Assembly: GCF_907163265.1 (NCBI RefSeq)
Contig: NZ_CAJQUM010000001.1
Coordinates: 1,240,001 to 1,304,000, forward strand
Reading direction: 5' to 3'
Length of the DNA stretch: 64,000 bases
Source of the DNA: Georgfuchsia toluolica
Lineage (GTDB): Bacteria; Pseudomonadota; Gammaproteobacteria; Burkholderiales; Rhodocyclaceae
The notes beneath the pieces were generated by a model, which did no database searches, was not told where the DNA came from, and worked only from the letters and a program-made list of their open reading frames with translations. Below are positions 3,016 to 22,812 of the stretch, in pieces (within the stretch, counting starts at the first letter, position 1; the number at the start of each line of letters is the position of its first letter). A program made the translations under genes and the position numbers.

Positions 3016-3343
3016 AAGACAGCCTCCCGGTTGCCACCAAATCCCGCCTGAAGGTCATAAGAATTGCGTACATGTGATGAGGCGCGAAAATAGCGTGATT
3101 CGAAGCACTGATCTGGGTTGCGTTCGCCTTCTCGTTCGTTAACAGCAATGAATACTTGTAAGCGGCAAAAGCTCCGGCAAAAGATGCCGCTAAAGAAGGA
3201 AGAATCCGGGTCACCAATGCCTGAAAATTGCCGCCAGTAGCTATAGCAATCCAAGTACTTAGACCGTATGCAAATAGGGTCAATGATAAGACGAGTCCTA
3301 CCAGGAGACCTACTAGCAATCTATTCAAATTAGGGATAGCCAT
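2996..3343 (-). CDS. Small two-helix membrane protein, unknown function
   Basis: 115 residues with two predicted membrane segments (about residues 8-35, LVGLLVGLVLSLTLFAYGL, and about 40-65, ILPSLAASFAGAFAAY) and a soluble basic tail. An aaggg ribosome site lies about 10 nt before the ATG at 3343. The 3' end overlaps the start of the LysR gene by 20 nt in another frame, so part of the tail may not be real coding sequence. I do not recognise a family. Confidence 0.45.
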   Translation of the reverse strand: MAIPNLNRLLVGLLVGLVLSLTLFAYGLSTWIAIATGGNFQALVTRILPSLAASFAGAFAAYKYSLLLTNEKANATQISASNHAIFAPHHMYAILMTFRRDLVATGRLSCEPQAT

Positions 3344-13478: not shown

Positions 13479-15059
13479 TCACTCCCACTCGATGGTCGCC
13501 GGCGGTTTGCCCGAGATGTCATAGACCACGCGATTGAGACCGCGCACTTCGTTGATGATGCGATTGCTGACCGTCGCCAGCAGCGCGTGCGGCAATTCCG
13601 CCCAGTGCGCCGTCATGAAATCCTGCGTCTGCACCGCGCGCAGGGCGACCACATACTCGTAGGTGCGGCCGTCGCCCATCACGCCGACGCTCTTCACCGG
13701 CAGGAACACGGCGAAGGCCTGCGAGGTCTTGTCGTACCAGCTCCTGCCGTCGGCGTCCCTGTTATTGCGCAATTCCTCGATGAAGATTGCATCGGCACGG
13801 CGCAGCAGGTCAGCGTATTCCTTCTTCACTTCGCCGAGGATGCGCACGCCCAGGCCGGGGCCCGGGAAGGGATGGCGATACACCATGTCATGCGGCAGGC
13901 CGAGCGCCACGCCAAGCTCGCGCACCTCGTCCTTGAACAGTTCGCGCAGCGGTTCGAGTAGCTTGAGATGCAAGGTTTCAGGGAGACCGCCGACGTTATG
14001 GTGGCTCTTGATGGTGTTTGCCTTCTTGGTCTTGGCGCCCGCCGACTCGATGACATCCGGGTATATAGTGCCTTGGGCCAGCCATTTGGCTTTGGGTAAT
14101 TTTTTTGCCTCGGCCTGAAACACCTCGACAAACTCGCGGCCAATGATCTTGCGCTTCTGCTCCGGGTCGCTGACGCCCTTGAGATGGCCCATGAATTGAT
14201 CGGCGGCATCGACGTGGATAACCTTGACGCCAAGATTGCGGGCAAAGGTCTGCATCACCTGTTCCGCCTCGTTGAGCCGCAACAGGCCGTTATCGACGAA
14301 AACGCAGGTCAGTTGGTCGCCGATGGCCTGGTGCAACAGCGCTGCCACCACACTCGAATCGACGCCGCCGGAAAGACCGAGAATCACTTCGTCCTTGCCG
14401 ACCTGTTCGCGCACCTTGGCAATGGCTTCGGACACATAGTCAGGCATGTTCCAGTCCGGCGTTGCGCCGCAGATATCAAGCACGAAGCGGCGCAGGATCG
14501 CCGCGCCCTGCACCGTATGCGTCACTTCGGGGTGGAACTGCAGCGCATAGAACTTTCGTGCCTCGTCGGCGATGCCGGCGATGGGGCAGGAATCGGTCGA
14601 GGCCATCAGTTTGAAGCCGGACGGCAGCGCGGTAACCTTGTCGCCGTGGCTCATCCACACCTTGAGCATGCCGTGACCGTCGGGCGTCACCGAATCCTGG
14701 ATGCCATCGAGCAGTTGGGTATGGCCGCGCGCGCGCACTTCGGCATAACCGAATTCACGCTTGTCGCTTGCCTCCACCGTGCCACCCAACTGCACGGCCA
14801 TGGTGAACATGCCGTAGCAAATGCCCAGTACCGGTACACCCAGTTCATAGACCACTTGCGGCGCGCGCAAGTCCTGCGCTTCATAGGTGCTGGCGTGACT
14901 ACCGGAAAGGATGATGCCCTTGGCGCCGTAAGCGCGGATGAATTCTTCCGAAACGTCGTTGGGATGGATTTCGGAATACACGCCGGCTTCGCGCACGCGG
15001 CGCGCAATGAGCTGAGTGACCTGAGACCCGAAATCGAGGATGAGAATCTTGTTGTGCAT
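13479..15059 (-). CDS. guaA: GMP synthase (glutamine-hydrolysing)
   Basis: 526 residues. The N-terminal class I glutamine amidotransferase has nucleophile C81 in [11 protein letters not shown] and the His/Glu pair in QFHPEVTHT. The ATP-pyrophosphatase domain contains the PP-loop [11 protein letters not shown] and ends in the dimerisation domain with the conserved C-terminus PPATIEWE. It aminates XMP to GMP. It lies 42 nt downstream of guaB and forms the usual guaBA operon. Its 3' end is a known integration site for genomic islands, which matters for the segment downstream. Confidence 0.98.
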
Positions 15060-16917: not shown

Positions 16918-17037
16918 TTACATGCCGTCTAGACTACCCTTCTTGGTATTCTCAAAATGACGACTTAAGCCTATGGCAAAAACGCCAATCCCCAACGCTA
17001 CAATCAATATTAGCCAGATCAGGTTGCTGACCTCCAT
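16918..17037 (-). CDS. 39-residue single-span membrane peptide of the NrfD operon
   Basis: The peptide starts MEVSNLIWLILIVALGIGVF, followed by AIGLSRHFENTKKGSLDGM. It has one membrane helix (about residues 5-25) and a short charged, probably cytoplasmic tail. A near-perfect aaaggaggaga ribosome site lies 5 nt before the ATG at 17037, strong evidence that it is translated. It is the last gene of the electron-transfer operon, 58 nt after the NrfD-type gene. By analogy with CcoQ, CydX and similar subunits, it may stabilise the membrane complex; this is inference. A longer in-frame start lacks a ribosome site. Confidence 0.7.
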   Translation of the reverse strand: MEVSNLIWLILIVALGIGVFAIGLSRHFENTKKGSLDGM

Positions 17038-17095
17038 TTTGTCTCCTCCTTTGTTATTGAAAAAAGCACTGCGTTTTGTTATGTCAAAAGGGTTA

Positions 17096-18271
17096 TCAAG
17101 TTGTCGCCTGGTCATCCCATGGTGGCAATATTCTCACCAAAAAGGATAGCAATGCAAATGGCGTAGCCAGCAAGCAGGCTGCAACCAGACCGCCCTCCCT
17201 GCCGAGGAAGTGCAGATGATAGGTCAGCAGCCCCCTGCCCGTCTTTGATATCTCCTGTCCGCCGATCACCACATTCCAGCGCATCATGAACACCGCGAGC
17301 AACACCAGGACGGCGCATGTCGTGACACCCGTGATCAGTGCCTTGCCGGTGGTGCCACGCCACATCATGAAACTGAGCAGCACGATCGGCAACACCGACC
17401 CAATCCCCAGTTGCAGGGTAAAGAACGGAATGAAGAGCGGGCCCCTGACGTACTCCATTATCATGTCCACTCCCTCCCGACCACGGTAGACCAGAGCTCC
17501 GAATTCCACCCCCTCCAGCACCAGGGCGAACATCATGAATCCCCACAGCGCATAAGCCATGCCCTTGAGGCAAGGCAAATCCACTGTCTTTTTGCGCAAG
17601 AGGCTGGATATGACGTAGAGCACAATTAGCAGCGCGGTACCCGAGATGATGGCGGAAAAAAGAAAAATGGGCGGCATGAGATCGGAGGACCACCATTCGC
17701 GCGACTTGAGTGAACCGAACACAAAGCCGACATAGCCGTGCAAACCGTGCGCCCCGGGGATGCCGATCACCGCCAGGGCGAAAATCCACTTGCGGTCGAC
17801 GCGCATCGCTGCCTCGGAAAGGTCATGGGACCCCAGCGACAGGACACGATAGAGCAATCCAAGGGCACCTTTTCTTTGTTGCGCCTGCTCGACGATGTAA
17901 GGCCGGAACACGAACCAGCTTTCCAGAAGCAACAGGAGGGTGTAGCCGGCAGCCGCAAAACCGAAAACGGCGAAAGCCGAACTCCAGTGTGGCGTGATCA
18001 TGGCATTGAATGCCCGCTCCGGATGGCCCAGATGGGTCAGCAAGCACAATGGAACAATAACCATGCAACACAGCGATGTCAGCAGGGCAAGGCGCGCGGC
18101 CGGCTTGAAGCGCTGCATGCCGAACACGTGGTACATGCTCGATACCGTGAAAGCCCCCGCTACCAGGCCGGTGAGATAGGGATAGAGCGCGATGAGCACA
18201 GTCCACGGAATGATGGTTTCGTTGGGATAGACATAACCGATATAGGGCGCAACGTCATAGAGTGCTTCCAC
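17096..18271 (-). CDS. NrfD/PsrC-family quinol-interacting membrane subunit
   Basis: 391 residues with eight to ten hydrophobic segments. It starts with GTG at 18271 (VEALYDVAPYIGYVYPNETI), directly after an aaggaggtga ribosome site that overlaps the end of the Fe-S gene; start and stop share one base, indicating translational coupling. The NrfD family (PF03916) exchanges electrons between membrane quinones and a periplasmic Fe-S partner. Regions such as LTHLGHPERAFNAMITP and IPGAHGLHGYVGFVFGS resemble PsrC/DsrP-type members. Heme ligands are not expected in this family. The partner is the Tat-exported Fe-S protein immediately upstream. Confidence 0.9.
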   Translation of the reverse strand: MEALYDVAPYIGYVYPNETIIPWTVLIALYPYLTGLVAGAFTVSSMYHVFGMQRFKPAARLALLTSLCCMVIVPLCLLTHLGHPERAFNAMITPHWSSAFAVFGFAAAGYTLLLLLESWFVFRPYIVEQAQQRKGALGLLYRVLSLGSHDLSEAAMRVDRKWIFALAVIGIPGAHGLHGYVGFVFGSLKSREWWSSDLMPPIFLFSAIISGTALLIVLYVISSLLRKKTVDLPCLKGMAYALWGFMMFALVLEGVEFGALVYRGREGVDMIMEYVRGPLFIPFFTLQLGIGSVLPIVLLSFMMWRGTTGKALITGVTTCAVLVLLAVFMMRWNVVIGGQEISKTGRGLLTYHLHFLGREGGLVAACLLATPFALLSFLVRILPPWDDQATT

Positions 18272-19125
18272 TAGATCACCTCCTTGTCGAGACCCACGTT
18301 GAAAACATTGGGCGCATTGCCGGATTCTGGTCTCAGCACCGAAACCCGGTTGTTGCGGAGGAACAGGCTGATCGGACTCTGCTTGTCGTTGCGATCGCCG
18401 AAGATACGCGCGCTGACCGGGCAAACTTCCACGCACGCCGGTTGCAGGCCTTTGGTGATGCGGTGGTAGCACCAGGTGCACTTGTCGGTGGCACCTTTTT
18501 CTTCGTTGAAGTAGCGCGCGCCATAGGGACAGGCCTGGACGCAATATTGGCAGCCGATGCAATACTTGTGGTCGATCACCACCACCCCGTCCTCGGTCTT
18601 GTAGGTCGCACCGGTGGGACATACCTGCACACAGGCCGGATGGGTGCAATGGTTGCAAAGCTTGGGCACGAAGAAAGCCCTGTCCACCTTCGCATCCTTG
18701 TAGCGGTTGGCGAATCGATATGCGCTTTCGGAACCCGATGCCGCGATATTCACCGGATCGCTCTGGCTGTCGATGCGTGCCTTCTCCTCTCCTTCCAGCG
18801 TGACGTAGCGCTCGACCCAGGTGCGGAAGTGATGCGCATCTGCAAGCACATTGTTCTCGATCTTGCACGCCTCGACGCAACGCAGGCAGCCGATGCACTT
18901 TGTCGCGTCCACGCCAAAGGCCCAGCGATGCTTGGTCCAGTCGTAATCCGGTATATCCGGTTTGGGCGGCGATGCGGCCTCTGAAGCGGCCGCCGCTTCG
19001 CACAATCCTGGCAAGCCAGTACCGGCCGCGATTGCCATGCCGCCGCAACCAACGGCCACGCCGAAGAAGCGCAGGACTTGCCTGCGCTCGCGACGCTGTT
19101 TCTCCTGCTCGTCGTTATCTGCCAT
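18271..19125 (-). CDS. Tat-exported ferredoxin-like protein with four [4Fe-4S] sites
   Basis: 284 residues. The N-terminus has a twin-arginine motif (RRQVLRFFG) and a hydrophobic stretch with an Ala-rich cleavage region, so the mature protein is periplasmic. Four cysteine groups follow: CIGCLRCVEAC, CNHCTHPACVQVCP, CIGCQYCVQACP and CTWCYHRITKGLQPACVEVCP. That gives 16 cysteines for four cubane clusters, as in PsrB/NrfC/DsrO/TtrB electron-transfer subunits. It should wire the NrfD-type subunit to the cytochromes encoded upstream. No molybdopterin catalytic subunit is encoded nearby. Confidence 0.92.
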   Translation of the reverse strand: MADNDEQEKQRRERRQVLRFFGVAVGCGGMAIAAGTGLPGLCEAAAASEAASPPKPDIPDYDWTKHRWAFGVDATKCIGCLRCVEACKIENNVLADAHHFRTWVERYVTLEGEEKARIDSQSDPVNIAASGSESAYRFANRYKDAKVDRAFFVPKLCNHCTHPACVQVCPTGATYKTEDGVVVIDHKYCIGCQYCVQACPYGARYFNEEKGATDKCTWCYHRITKGLQPACVEVCPVSARIFGDRNDKQSPISLFLRNNRVSVLRPESGNAPNVFNVGLDKEVI

Positions 19126-19176
19126 CTGGGTAGCCCTCCTCGCTGCATTGACCTTGACCGCTTTGCGTGCGTACGC

Positions 19177-20205
19177 CTAGCGGCAAGCTGCATTGGCAAA
19201 ATATGCCGCGACGTTCGCCGCGTCGGTATCGCTCAGTCCTTGCGCGATGCCATCCATCATGCCGTTCTTGCGCTCGCCCGCCTTGTAGGATTTGAAGCTG
19301 CCCAACAGGTACTCACCGGACAGGCCGGCAAGATTCGGCCATGAGGGTTGCGTACTGACGCCTTGCGCGCCGTGGCACGTAGCGCATTTCGCCGCAACCG
19401 CCAGGCCTGCGGCGGCGGCCTTCTTGTCCCCGTTCCCCGCGCTCTTGCATTTGGCAGCGGAAAAATACGCAGCAACATTGGCGATATCGTTGTCGCTCAA
19501 ATCCTTGGCTATCGAACTCATCAACTCGTTAGCGCGTGCGCCGGTCTTGTATGCCTTGAGGGAGATGACGAGATAGTCCGCCTTCTGTCCGGCAAGTCCG
19601 GGAGCGGAATCACCAATGCCCGCTTCGCCATGACATCCGGCGCAACCAGCCGCGATCGCCTTGCCCGCCACGGCATCGCCTTTTGCTGCGCTAGCGGCAG
19701 CCACTTTGAAGGTCCTGGGGGAATGCGGATTGTGGCAAACCGTGCATTGCTGGGTTCTGGCATGCTCGGCCACCACGATCTGCCGCTGCTGCGCGGGACG
19801 TCCGGGCATCTGCTCATGGCACAGTGTGCAAAGCCTGGCGGTGTCGACCGGAATCGTCATCTTCAAGCCACTGGGGTGATCCTTGCCGGTGGTCACGTTG
19901 TCGAACCGGCCCTTGACGTCGCGGCTGCCCGCCGGGCCGTGACACACTTCGCACTTGACGACCTTGCCGAGTTCGACGTTGTTGTGCACGCCCTTCGCCC
20001 ATTCTGCATATTCGCTGGCGTGGCATTGCTCGCAGTACTTTGGCGTCTTGAACTTGGGTTTGTCCGATGCGATCTCCGCCACCGAGAGGCCACGATAGTG
20101 CCCGAACTGATAGAACGAACCGGCGGTGAAGTACTGCTTGGCCGTATAGGCGACAATAACGAATGCCAAAAGCAGCATGACCAGTCGGACGATATGTTTC
20201 GGCAT
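19177..20205 (-). CDS. Six-heme c-type cytochrome (tetraheme plus c4-like diheme)
   Basis: 342 residues with an N-terminal membrane anchor or signal (IVRLVMLLLAFVIVAYTAKQ). Six CXXCH sites occur. CEQCH, CEVCH, CTLCH and CTVCH lie in an N-terminal part resembling cytochrome c554/NapC-NrfH-like multihemes. CAGCH and CATCH lie in two C-terminal c4-type domains, each ending in a DxDxANVAAYF-like motif (LSDNDIANVAAYF, LSDTDAANVAAYF). The fusion of these two modules is unusual. It probably receives electrons from, or gives them to, the Fe-S/NrfD pair 51 nt downstream. Confidence 0.88.
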   Translation of the reverse strand: MPKHIVRLVMLLLAFVIVAYTAKQYFTAGSFYQFGHYRGLSVAEIASDKPKFKTPKYCEQCHASEYAEWAKGVHNNVELGKVVKCEVCHGPAGSRDVKGRFDNVTTGKDHPSGLKMTIPVDTARLCTLCHEQMPGRPAQQRQIVVAEHARTQQCTVCHNPHSPRTFKVAAASAAKGDAVAGKAIAAGCAGCHGEAGIGDSAPGLAGQKADYLVISLKAYKTGARANELMSSIAKDLSDNDIANVAAYFSAAKCKSAGNGDKKAAAAGLAVAAKCATCHGAQGVSTQPSWPNLAGLSGEYLLGSFKSYKAGERKNGMMDGIAQGLSDTDAANVAAYFANAACR

Positions 20206-20260
20206 TTCTCGCTTCCTAGCTGATTGTGATGGACGAGTATCCCTTGGACATGCAGCGTTA

Positions 20261-20587
20261 TTAACTCTTGCTGATCATGTAGTCGACAGCAGCTTTGATG
20301 TCTTCGTCACTCAGAGAACTATTGCCGGCCCTGGGTTTCATCTTTCCCTTGCCCTTGATGACGGATTCTTCGAGCGCCGCCTCTCCTCCCTTGATCAGGG
20401 GCGCCCATTTGGCCTTGTCGCCGGTTTTCGGGGAGCCCATCACCCCCTTGTCATGGCAAAGCTTGCAACTCTTGTCGTAAACCGTCTGGCCATCCGCCGC
20501 GGCCGAGGACCGCAAGATGCCTGCAAGCAGCGCCGCCGCCATGAACATGACAAAGTGTTTCCCATGCCGGATATTTTGAATACGCAT
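20261..20587 (-). CDS. Monoheme c-type cytochrome (c5-like)
   Basis: 108 residues. A signal peptide runs to about residue 30 (FMAAALLAGILRSSAAA); the heme site is CKLCH and the distal methionine is probably in GKMKPR. This is the class I c5/c-like fold with WAPLIKGGEAALEESVIKGKGKM. It is the first gene of the electron-transfer operon, with a ggaggag ribosome site. It is likely the soluble periplasmic redox partner. Divergent from the histidine kinase gene. Confidence 0.9.
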   Translation of the reverse strand: MRIQNIRHGKHFVMFMAAALLAGILRSSAAADGQTVYDKSCKLCHDKGVMGSPKTGDKAKWAPLIKGGEAALEESVIKGKGKMKPRAGNSSLSDEDIKAAVDYMISKS

Positions 20588-20771: not shown

Positions 20772-22187
20772 GTGGTCAGGAATTTCTTCGCCAAGTTAAC
20801 TCTCTTGCGCCTGCTGCTCGCGGGCGGGTTCGTCGTGTTGCTGGTCGGGATGCTGTTCATGGGCACGTGGATCAGCAGCACGATCGAGGAAAGGGTGGTC
20901 CATCATGAGGGCGAGGTTTTTGCGTTATATCTGGACAGCCTCATCTCCGACCACGTCGAGTCTATTGCCAGCAACGGTCAGTTGAGCAGCACGGATGTGG
21001 TTGGGCTGGACAAGCTGTTTTCCGGAACCGAAGTCGGCAAGCGCATCGTGACGTTCAAGATGTGGTCACGCGATGGCCGCATCATCTATAGCACCAATCC
21101 GGCGCTTATCGGCAGGCAGTTCAAGGTAAAGCCGGACCTGGCCATGGCGTTTCGCGGGGAAACGAAATCGCACTTATCCGATATCACGGATGACGAGAAT
21201 CTGTTCGAGCGTCAGCGCTGGTCCAGACTGCTTGAAATCTACGCACCCATGCACGAACGGAAAACCGGATCGATCGTTGGCGTTGCCGAGATCTATCAGA
21301 CCACAGATGTTGTCGCACGCGCTGTCGGTACCGCCAAGCTGAAAACCTGGCTCGTGGTCATCGCGGCAACACTGGTCATGTACCTGCTGCTTGCCGCGCT
21401 GATCAAGCGCGCCAGCAATATCATTGCCGCGCAGCAAAACGAGCTTCACGATAAAGTGAGGCAGCTCACCGCGCTGCTGGCCCAGAACGAGCAGCTTCAC
21501 GAACGCGTGCGGCGCGCGGGGGGACGCGCGGCAGCAATCAATGAACAGACCCTCAACCGCATCGCGGCAGACCTCCATGACGGTCCGGCGCAGGGGCTGG
21601 CGCTTGCATTGATGCGCATGGGAACTCTGGCCGAATCGTGCGGCACCTGTTCCTCGACGGTCGGCAAGGGGCGCACCGTGGCAGACGAATTCCGCACGCT
21701 CCATTCCGCGTTGCAATCCGCGCGCGACGAATTGCACGCCATCGCCGCGGGGCTGCCGCTGCCGGAAATCGAGCGGTTGACGCTCACCGAGACGGCACAG
21801 CGCGCATTGCACGACTATGAGCGCAAGGTAGGCTTTGCAGTGCCGCTCACGGTCGATGAACTTCCGTCCGAAGCGCCGCTGCCCGTAAAGATTACCCTGT
21901 ACCGGCTGTTGCAGGAGTCCCTCGCCAACGGGTTCAGACACGGCGCCGCGACCGATCAGCGCGTACGGCTGACGCGGACTGGGGAACAGCTAATTGTCGA
22001 TGTTACCGACAGCGGCAAGGGATTCGACCTTCGGACGATCGCCGCAAACGGCCATCTTGGGCTGGCGGGAATGCGCGAACGGGTGGAGATACTCGGCGGC
22101 TCTTTCAGCGTGCAAAGCGCCCCCGGTTCGGGCACACTGATCCGCGCGTCGCTGCCCCTGCGGTTACTGGAGGAAGAAAATGAGTGA
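20772..22187 (+). CDS. Membrane sensor histidine kinase (NarX/HisKA_3 type)
   Basis: 471 residues from a GTG start. Membrane helices at about 12-33 and 193-213 flank a periplasmic sensing region of roughly 160 residues. After a coiled linker (LHDKVRQLTALLAQNEQLHERV) come the HisKA_3 phospho-acceptor site IAADLHDGPAQGLALALMRM and a HATPase domain (ESLANGFRHG, DSGKGFDL, GLAGMRERVEILGG). A CGTC pair sits just after the phosphorylation helix, which is unusual. The gene overlaps the response regulator by 8 nt. With the divergent cytochrome operon it probably senses a redox-related or electron-acceptor signal. Confidence 0.9.
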   Translation: MVRNFFAKLTLLRLLLAGGFVVLLVGMLFMGTWISSTIEERVVHHEGEVFALYLDSLISDHVESIASNGQLSSTDVVGLDKLFSGTEVGKRIVTFKMWSRDGRIIYSTNPALIGRQFKVKPDLAMAFRGETKSHLSDITDDENLFERQRWSRLLEIYAPMHERKTGSIVGVAEIYQTTDVVARAVGTAKLKTWLVVIAATLVMYLLLAALIKRASNIIAAQQNELHDKVRQLTALLAQNEQLHERVRRAGGRAAAINEQTLNRIAADLHDGPAQGLALALMRMGTLAESCGTCSSTVGKGRTVADEFRTLHSALQSARDELHAIAAGLPLPEIERLTLTETAQRALHDYERKVGFAVPLTVDELPSEAPLPVKITLYRLLQESLANGFRHGAATDQRVRLTRTGEQLIVDVTDSGKGFDLRTIAANGHLGLAGMRERVEILGGSFSVQSAPGSGTLIRASLPLRLLEEENE

Positions 22188-22812
22188 CCCCATCCTCATT
22201 CTGGTCGCGGATGATCACCCGCTGTTTCGCGAAGGCGTCGTTCATTCGCTCGCCTCCGAACCGGATTTCACTGTTGTCGGCCAAGCCGCGGACGGCGAGG
22301 AAGCGCTGCGGCTCGCGCGCGAGCTGCTGCCCGACGTGGTACTGCTCGACATCGCCATGCCGGGAGGCGGAGGCCTGGTCACCGCCGAAAAGATAATCAC
22401 CGCCTGCCCCGCAACGAAGATCGTGATGCTGACGGTATTCGAAGACGAAGACAAGCTGCTGGCTGCATTCAAGGCCGGCGCCTGCGGCTATGTTCTCAAA
22501 GGCGTCTCGGCGCGCGATCTGGCAAGCGTGGTGCGCACCGCAGCAAGCGGCGAAGTCTATGTATCACCCTCGCTTGCGGCGGGAATCATGGTCGCACTGT
22601 CGCGAGGCAAACCTGCCGATCCACTGGAGGAACTGACAGAAAGGGAATCACAAATCCTCACCCTGGTCGGGCAAGGCTTGACCAATCGCGAAATCGGCGA
22701 CCGCATCCATCTCTCGGAAAAAACCATCAAGCATTACATCACCAATATCCTGCAGAAATTGCAGGTGCGCAGTCGCGTGGAGGCGGCGTTGATGGCGGCA
22801 CGGCACGCCTGA
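22180..22812 (+). CDS. NarL/FixJ-family response regulator
   Basis: 210 residues. The receiver domain has ADDHPLFREG, the phosphorylated Asp in PDVVLLDIAMPG and the conserved Lys in YVLKGVS. A LuxR-type helix-turn-helix follows (LTERESQILTLVGQGLTNRE, then HLSEKTIKHYITNILQKL). It overlaps the kinase gene by 8 nt, so the two form a cognate pair. The divergent cytochrome operon is the most likely target. Confidence 0.93.
   Translation: MSDPILILVADDHPLFREGVVHSLASEPDFTVVGQAADGEEALRLARELLPDVVLLDIAMPGGGGLVTAEKIITACPATKIVMLTVFEDEDKLLAAFKAGACGYVLKGVSARDLASVVRTAASGEVYVSPSLAAGIMVALSRGKPADPLEELTERESQILTLVGQGLTNREIGDRIHLSEKTIKHYITNILQKLQVRSRVEAALMAARHA

Follow-up and report, generated by a model that had tools for sequence, protein, structure and literature searches.

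A NetBCD-like cytochrome/Fe-S/NrfD operon with a fused cytochrome c4, probably a quinone:cytochrome oxidoreductase of extracellular electron transfer, has its core encoded twice in Georgfuchsia toluolica

Within a stretch of 64,000 nucleotides from Georgfuchsia toluolica (contig NZ_CAJQUM010000001.1, positions 1,240,001 to 1,304,000; the whole stretch is referred to as the window), five genes on the minus strand at 16918-20587 form an operon without a catalytic gene among the listed open reading frames (ORFs) around it. Judging from sequence, this operon probably encodes a quinone:cytochrome oxidoreductase resembling NetBCD of Aeromonas, which would belong to an extracellular electron transfer system and whose core is encoded twice in the genome. 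In order of transcription, the genes encode a monoheme c-type cytochrome (20261-20587; 108 amino acids [aa], one CXXCH motif; Pfam Cytochrome_CBB3, 59.8 bits), a six-heme cytochrome (19177-20205; 342 aa, six CXXCH motifs; Pfam Cytochrom_C plus multiheme families), an iron-sulfur (Fe-S) protein of the TtrB/DsrO/NrfC-like, four-cluster type with a twin-arginine translocation (Tat)-type start (18271-19125; 284 aa; Pfam Fer4_11, 100 bits), an NrfD-type quinone-binding membrane subunit (17096-18271; 391 aa; Pfam NrfD, 140.5 bits against a cutoff of 25.8), and a single-helix membrane peptide that is probably a conserved small subunit (16918-17037; 39 aa). The first-pass annotation of this locus had described the same five genes and protein types, and both the ORFs and the Pfam matches bear it out, as they do its statement that no catalytic subunit is present.

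A key observation was a second copy of the six-heme cytochrome, Fe-S, and NrfD genes (the trio) in the same genome, 0.2 Mb from the window copy at G000:C1:1458856-1461965. The duplicated block (17096-20205 of the window, minus strand) runs exactly from the ATG of the six-heme cytochrome to the stop codon of NrfD, and the two copies are identical at 3,110 of 3,110 bases. Directly upstream of the ATG there are 0 identical bases, and downstream the likeness is limited to the ribosome-binding region. Some 2 kb separate the second copy from a divergently oriented mtrC-mtrA-mtrB cluster, which encodes an outer membrane electron conduit, and all three Mtr proteins score above their NCBIfam cutoffs (MtrC, 445 bits; MtrA, 306 bits; MtrB, 509 bits). 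The flanks of the two copies are unrelated, and the best reading of an identity that runs exactly from coding sequence to coding sequence, bounded by a start and a stop codon, is recent homogenization by gene conversion that halted at the limits of homology, here also the limits of coding. An assembly or polishing artifact could also account for the identity; whichever origin applies, both copies are predicted to encode the same proteins, and the window copy is thereby tied to the mtrCAB-linked copy.

Further genes for electron carriers surround the second copy. The gene upstream of it encodes a diheme protein of 374 aa related to the monoheme cytochrome (46% and 35% identity), and two c4-repeat proteins are encoded nearby, one of which was scanned and had PdsA as its best NCBIfam match (121 of 330 bits). 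Also encoded in this cluster is a protein with nine hemes and a membrane part of the b561 type (L007 7862-9844), whose architecture is CbcL/MtoC-like. In the portions of PMC6295460 available to us, the combination of a b561 part with multiple hemes is described for CbcL, and the family is reported in both Fe(II) oxidizers and Fe(III) reducers. The extracellular electron transfer cluster of this genome (L007 13873-18183 together with L008 3-5046) holds two unlike candidates for the quinone oxidoreductase, namely, the trio resembling NetBCD and the nine-heme CbcL/MtoC-like protein. Three other ORFs of the cluster deserve mention. A 265-aa membrane protein with one CXXCH (L007 11479-12276) has no Pfam or NCBIfam match at an E value of 0.001 and relatives in 40 of the 80 related loci introduced below, and it is possibly an unnamed part of the same system. 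Between NrfD and a c4-repeat gene, a short signal-peptide-like ORF with a stop (L007, about 13700-13857) lies in a stretch matching locus L060 at 83%, where L060 has a monoheme cytochrome gene, and may be the remnant of such a gene. The third, another MtrC-like multiheme ORF with at least five CXXCH motifs (L008 17099-19000), lies about 12 kb past mtrB and runs off the end of the retrieved stretch.

The six-heme cytochrome is a fusion, as the first reading of the sequence had proposed when it described a tetraheme part plus two c4-like domains. Residues 1 to 165 form an N-terminal, membrane-anchored tetraheme part of the bis-histidine type, with a helix at residues 3 to 26 in the structural model, and residues 175 to 340 form a diheme cytochrome c4. 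The modeled C-terminal half matches diheme cytochrome c4 with a Z score of 24.4 and a root-mean-square deviation of 1.3 over 165 residues, a comparison that leaves the tetraheme part outside. For this c4 half, the best structural chain was 8smr_K, from a bc1-cbb3 supercomplex, and a sequence match was found to 6q2u (E value of 1.3e-34). The tetraheme part had no clear match among solved structures, with Escherichia coli NrfB at an E value of 2.7. In relatives, His 74, His 110, His 148, and His 161 are invariant along with the four CXXCH motifs (64 of 64 aligned rows), and four extra histidines is the number required for bis-histidine ligation of four hemes. The axial methionines of the c4 domains are likewise conserved in every row possessing those domains (Met 229 in 59 of 59, Met 317 in 58 of 58), giving the two domains with His/Met ligands that characterize a diheme cytochrome c4. 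With a spare histidine for each tetraheme heme and a methionine for each c4 heme, no open heme site is expected, and the ligands visible in the protein suggest a function in electron transfer rather than catalysis.

Four cluster-type groups account for 16 of the 18 cysteines of the Fe-S protein, which also has a twin-arginine start recognized by eye (RRERRQVLRFF), in agreement with its earlier description as a Tat-exported four-cluster protein. Its best NCBIfam scores, to TtrB (203 of 416 bits) and DsrO (181.6 of 200 bits), are under the cutoffs, as are its scores to every other named NCBIfam model shown, and its best solved relative is 2vpw_B, an NrfC protein (E value of 8e-45). By eye, the start codon of the NrfD gene is a GTG that overlaps the stop codon of the Fe-S gene. 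The modeled NrfD protein is most like chain C (ActC) of alternative complex III, with template-modeling scores of 0.72 to 0.79, and an NrfD profile searched against Protein Data Bank chains gave no match at an E value of 0.001.

The operon is not a chance arrangement, as the trio is conserved in relatives. When 399 genomes of the order were sampled, eight (termed carriers) had the NrfD subfamily of the trio. All 12 other genomes of the family to which the window belongs lacked it. MtrB was found in 5 of 8 carriers compared to 37 of 391 noncarriers (Fisher P = 4.5e-4), or 5 of 7 compared to 26 of 152 when counted by genus (P = 0.003). A scan of genome contigs yielded 164 stretches encoding related proteins, the best 80 of which were used as related loci; nearly all are from metagenome-assembled Betaproteobacteria, with some from Alphaproteobacteria and Gammaproteobacteria. 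Many end at contig ends, and two pairs represent the same contigs with identical ORFs (L066 and L045 of G329, L111 and L049 of G381), both members being counted in the 80. Mtr genes occurred in the fetched flanks of 18 of the 80 loci and in 7 of the 20 having at least 9 kb on both sides, and MtrB was present in 13 of 80 compared to about 0.04 expected by chance; counts of MtrA, MtrB, and MtrC rest on BLAST and on a profile built from those BLAST hits. PdsA-like four-heme c4-repeat proteins were encoded in 40 loci, and CbcL/MtoC-like proteins in 19. The earlier suggestion of a stand-alone quinol:periplasm conduit for a distant or external partner gains support from these data, in which the genomic linkage of Mtr genes to related loci and of mtrCAB to the second copy points to MtrCAB as that partner.

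The heme content of the cytochrome preceding the Fe-S gene varies among relatives. Six hemes were found in 64 of the 80 loci, four in six loci, five in two, and seven in one. The other seven loci lacked a four- to seven-heme cytochrome, five having none and two a one-heme fragment. In the short forms aligned in full (G381 and G078), the c4 domains were wholly or partly missing, showing that the fusion is modular.

These results suggest a pathway in which the subunits would form one complex. Electrons exchanged between NrfD and the (ubi)quinone pool would leave the membrane by way of the four-cluster Fe-S protein and be accepted by the tetraheme part of the six-heme cytochrome. The fused c4 tail, acting as a built-in shuttle, and the monoheme cytochrome, acting as a soluble one, could then pass electrons to the periplasmic end of MtrCAB, encoded 0.2 Mb away. 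The tetraheme/c4 fusion is evidence that the tetraheme subunit passes electrons to a c4/PdsA-type shuttle, and no catalytic subunit would be needed because the chemistry would take place outside the cell. The same core is encoded in two places, one in the mtrCAB cluster and one in the window beside its own sensor kinase/response regulator pair.

Several observations weigh against this proposal. The window copy has no Mtr gene nearby. MtrCAB need not accompany the trio, as three of the eight carriers lack MtrB (G033, G078, and G390) and Mtr genes are absent from 13 of the 20 loci whose flanks extend 9 kb or more on each side. Net and Cym systems, including that of Aeromonas, are menaquinone based, and the carriers probably differ in this respect. 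Ubiquinol is a poor donor for the low-potential hemes of MtrA, which argues against simple outward flow, and the high-potential hemes of a c4 domain also suit transfer to oxidases or cytochrome c. In addition, the likeness to NetBCD is one of description rather than of direct alignment with the Aeromonas proteins, and we propose that the operon works like NetBCD/PdsA, not that it is a member of that group.

The quinone used bears on the direction of electron flow. UbiG scored over the cutoff in all eight carriers. Both markers of menaquinone synthesis were negative in the same eight genomes (menD over the cutoff in 0 of 8, futalosine marker PF02621 in 0 of 8), and menaquinone use was rejected; the quinone pool of the carriers, as far as gene content can tell, is probably ubiquinone only. 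Because ubiquinol is a weak donor to MtrA, this points to electron uptake or to high-potential acceptors. The His/Met hemes of cytochrome c4 are usually high potential, and a tail of this kind points to outward flow. Taken together, these considerations favor outward flow slightly, without settling the direction.

Reversed operation of the same complex is thus possible, if less well supported: as the quinone reductase of an uptake pathway, it would receive electrons from Fe(II), a mineral, or a cathode via MtrCAB and deliver them inward to ubiquinone. The presence of UbiG without a detectable menaquinone pathway is consistent with uptake, as are RuBisCO in five of eight carriers and the nine-heme b-type CbcL/MtoC-like protein in the second-copy cluster, given the reported occurrence of that family in Fe(II) oxidizers as well as Fe(III) reducers (PMC6295460, portions available). 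Against it, RuBisCO had no match in the genome of the window, which is 97% complete, and NetBCD runs outward. The c4 hemes at the far end also pose an energetic problem, in that transfer from them to ubiquinone would be uphill at usual potentials.

An unlikely alternative is that the operon encodes a minimal form of alternative complex III. As a ubiquinol:cytochrome c oxidoreductase, it would feed terminal oxidases through its c4 domains and monoheme cytochrome, independently of extracellular electron transfer. The resemblance of the NrfD model to ActC fits this idea, cytochrome c4 is a typical oxidase donor whose closest structural match here comes from a bc1-cbb3 supercomplex, the carriers have UbiG and no menaquinone pathway was found in them, and some carriers lack MtrB. 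However, the operon has one NrfD only and no molybdopterin-like ActB, and the linkage with mtrCAB also counts against this idea. Replacement of the bc1 complex was rejected, as cytochrome c1 is present in all eight carriers and no replacement is needed.

Other NrfD modules in the genome clarified whether a catalytic partner is likely. Five NrfD genes are present, two being the copies described here. Each of the other three adjoins a catalytic subunit, of hydrogenase 2 in one case and of molybdopterin enzymes in two, compared to neither copy of the trio. Among the 80 related loci, no adjacent molybdopterin, NrfA-type, or Dsr gene recurred beside the trio in a crude screen based on clustering, ORF length, heme count, and reading of ORF starts, with no Pfam scan per ORF; molybdopterin subunits were absent at both copies, and the same reading of ORFs does detect molybdopterin enzymes at L010 and L011. 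No NrfA-type ORF is present at the window locus, a result that does not extend to the rest of the genome, where no search for NrfA was made. Two 541-aa five-heme ORFs (in L110 and L117) were considered as catalytic candidates and rejected, both being NapC/NrfH-like. By this screen, the set was not consistently attached to a known catalytic subunit across the 80 loci, a finding that would have made it an ordinary Psr-, Nrf-, or Ttr-type module. An orphan Psr/Ttr/Nrf/Dms-type module with its catalytic subunit elsewhere in the genome is accordingly very improbable: the Fe-S protein does score best with TtrB and DsrO models (both under cutoff) and the genome does hold PhsA-like molybdopterin enzymes, but the molybdopterin enzymes beside other NrfD genes have Fe-S and NrfD partners of their own, no catalytic gene recurs at both copies or in related loci, and the identical copy adjoins mtrCAB.

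Divergent from the operon, a NarL-type sensor histidine kinase (20772-22187, plus strand; Pfam HisKA_3/HATPase_c) and its partner, a LuxR-type response regulator (22180-22812, plus strand; Pfam Response_reg/GerE), are likely regulators and may control its expression. In 16 of the 80 loci, a divergent kinase homolog lies no more than 2.5 kb from the cytochrome gene, and response regulators 74 to 84% identical adjoin that kinase in relatives such as L056, L074, and L055. Locus L056 has the gene order of the window (regulator, kinase, monoheme, six-heme, Fe-S, NrfD), including a monoheme homolog with 74% identity before the trio. Homologs of the monoheme cytochrome follow the trio in L045/L066 (50% identity) and in L075, L080, L084, L093, L095, L101, and L109. 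A rhodanese-domain protein is encoded in 15 loci (for example, L080 7283-8149) on the strand of the trio, about 2 kb before NrfD. These loci are mostly kinase linked and include the shared contig of L045 and L066, and no such gene was seen in the window.

The 39-aa membrane peptide has no Pfam match. Similar peptides are encoded directly after NrfD in L050, L052, and L061, and they were the first matches after self when the window peptide was searched with phmmer against 14,697 ORFs of 25 to 110 aa (E values of 4.7e-4, 0.013, and 0.11). The three relatives differ from each other mostly at silent sites (ratio of nonsynonymous to synonymous change [pN/pS] of 0.07 to 0.17), and a profile built from them alone finds the window peptide at just an E value of 0.093. 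In L056, a peptide of like size lies just before the monoheme gene, and its best nonself matches are these same peptides, at E values of at least 1. Kinship of the window peptide with those of the relatives is likely, not certain, and the peptide is probably a real conserved subunit.

To our knowledge, the link between the quinone pool and outer membrane conduits is well known in few models only, namely, Shewanella, Aeromonas, Vibrio, and Geobacter. The operon offers a candidate for the inner membrane half across a wide range of uncultivated bacteria that are probably ubiquinone only, and its parts can now be named, namely, a fused shuttle along with candidates for a tiny subunit and a sensor kinase pair. 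Whether ubiquinone is coupled to Fe reduction or to electron uptake can be tested with one set of proteins. A tentative and wider hypothesis is that MtrCAB in uncultivated Betaproteobacteria, Alphaproteobacteria, and Gammaproteobacteria is served by a family of ubiquinone-only NrfD conduits, each with its own tiny membrane subunit and a fused c4 tail that ranges from no domain to about three. In autotrophic carriers these would operate in uptake, and the two identical copies found here would place the same wire under separate regulators and so under two signals.

Compared to known systems, the gene types and order are those of E. coli NrfBCD, which in nitrite respiration comprises a multiheme cytochrome, a four-cluster Fe-S protein, and NrfD. 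In contrast to the Nrf system, there is no NrfA at the locus, and model scores are low (NrfC, 142 of 378 bits; NrfD, 39 of 348; NrfB, 19 of 167). Alternative complex III (ActABCDEF) shares an NrfD-type subunit like ActC, an Fe-S chain, and cytochrome output. That complex has two NrfD subunits, the molybdopterin-like ActB, and ActA/ActE cytochromes, whereas the operon has one NrfD, no ActB, and a bis-histidine tetraheme part plus c4 in place of ActA/ActE. Complexes of the Qrc, Hmc, Tmc, and Cbc4 types also lack a working catalytic subunit and join cytochrome, Fe-S, and NrfD proteins to link quinones with cytochromes of the periplasm, but scores to the HmcB, HmcC, and QrcC models are low (112 of 420, 23 of 550, and 86 of 400 bits, respectively) and the cytochromes are different. 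Membership in DsrMKJOP was rejected (DsrO, 181.6 of 200 bits; DsrP, 45 of 350).

The closest analogue is NetBCD of Aeromonas hydrophila. The first-pass annotation could match the combination to no named complex; this is too strong, as NetBCD/PdsA is a named and close counterpart. As described in the available portions of PMC8805035, PMC9012536, and PMC13393422, NetBCD is a multisubunit inner membrane quinol oxidoreductase clustered with mtrCAB and a diheme shuttle, and in PMC13393422 the consecutive loci AHA_2760 to AHA_2766 are netBCD, pdsA, and mtrCAB. PMC8805035 discusses CymA, PdsA, NetBCD, MtoC, and MtoD, and the term NrfD is absent from its main text as available. In the literature searched, in the portions available, the name NetBCD was used only for Aeromonas, and no paper on a fused c4/tetraheme NrfD module was found there, subscription papers being outside its scope. 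Like NetBCD, the operon combines a multiheme cytochrome, an Fe-S protein, and NrfD without a catalytic subunit, NetB heme number being outside this comparison. Linkage to mtrCAB is found for the identical second copy and not for the window copy. Unlike NetBCD/PdsA, the operon has no separate PdsA, c4 being fused instead (53 of 330 bits to the PdsA model), and it differs further in its extra monoheme cytochrome and 39-aa peptide, in the lack of a detectable menaquinone pathway in all eight carriers, and in having a second copy that stands alone next to a kinase and its regulator. No match over the PdsA cutoff was found in 369 genomes of the class, which means that the sample contained no true PdsA locus of the Aeromonas/Vibrio type; a gammaproteobacterium (G564) served as a proxy. 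One contig of this genome carries mtrCAB and a stand-alone gene for a PdsA-like diheme protein, and at a distance of some 50 kb it encodes an unfused version of the module consisting of a separate 173-aa tetraheme protein, an Fe-S protein, and NrfD (26%, 50%, and 37% identity to the tetraheme part, Fe-S protein, and NrfD of the trio, respectively). That these elements are neighbors in one lineage and fused in another supports the exchange of electrons between the tetraheme subunit and the diheme shuttle.

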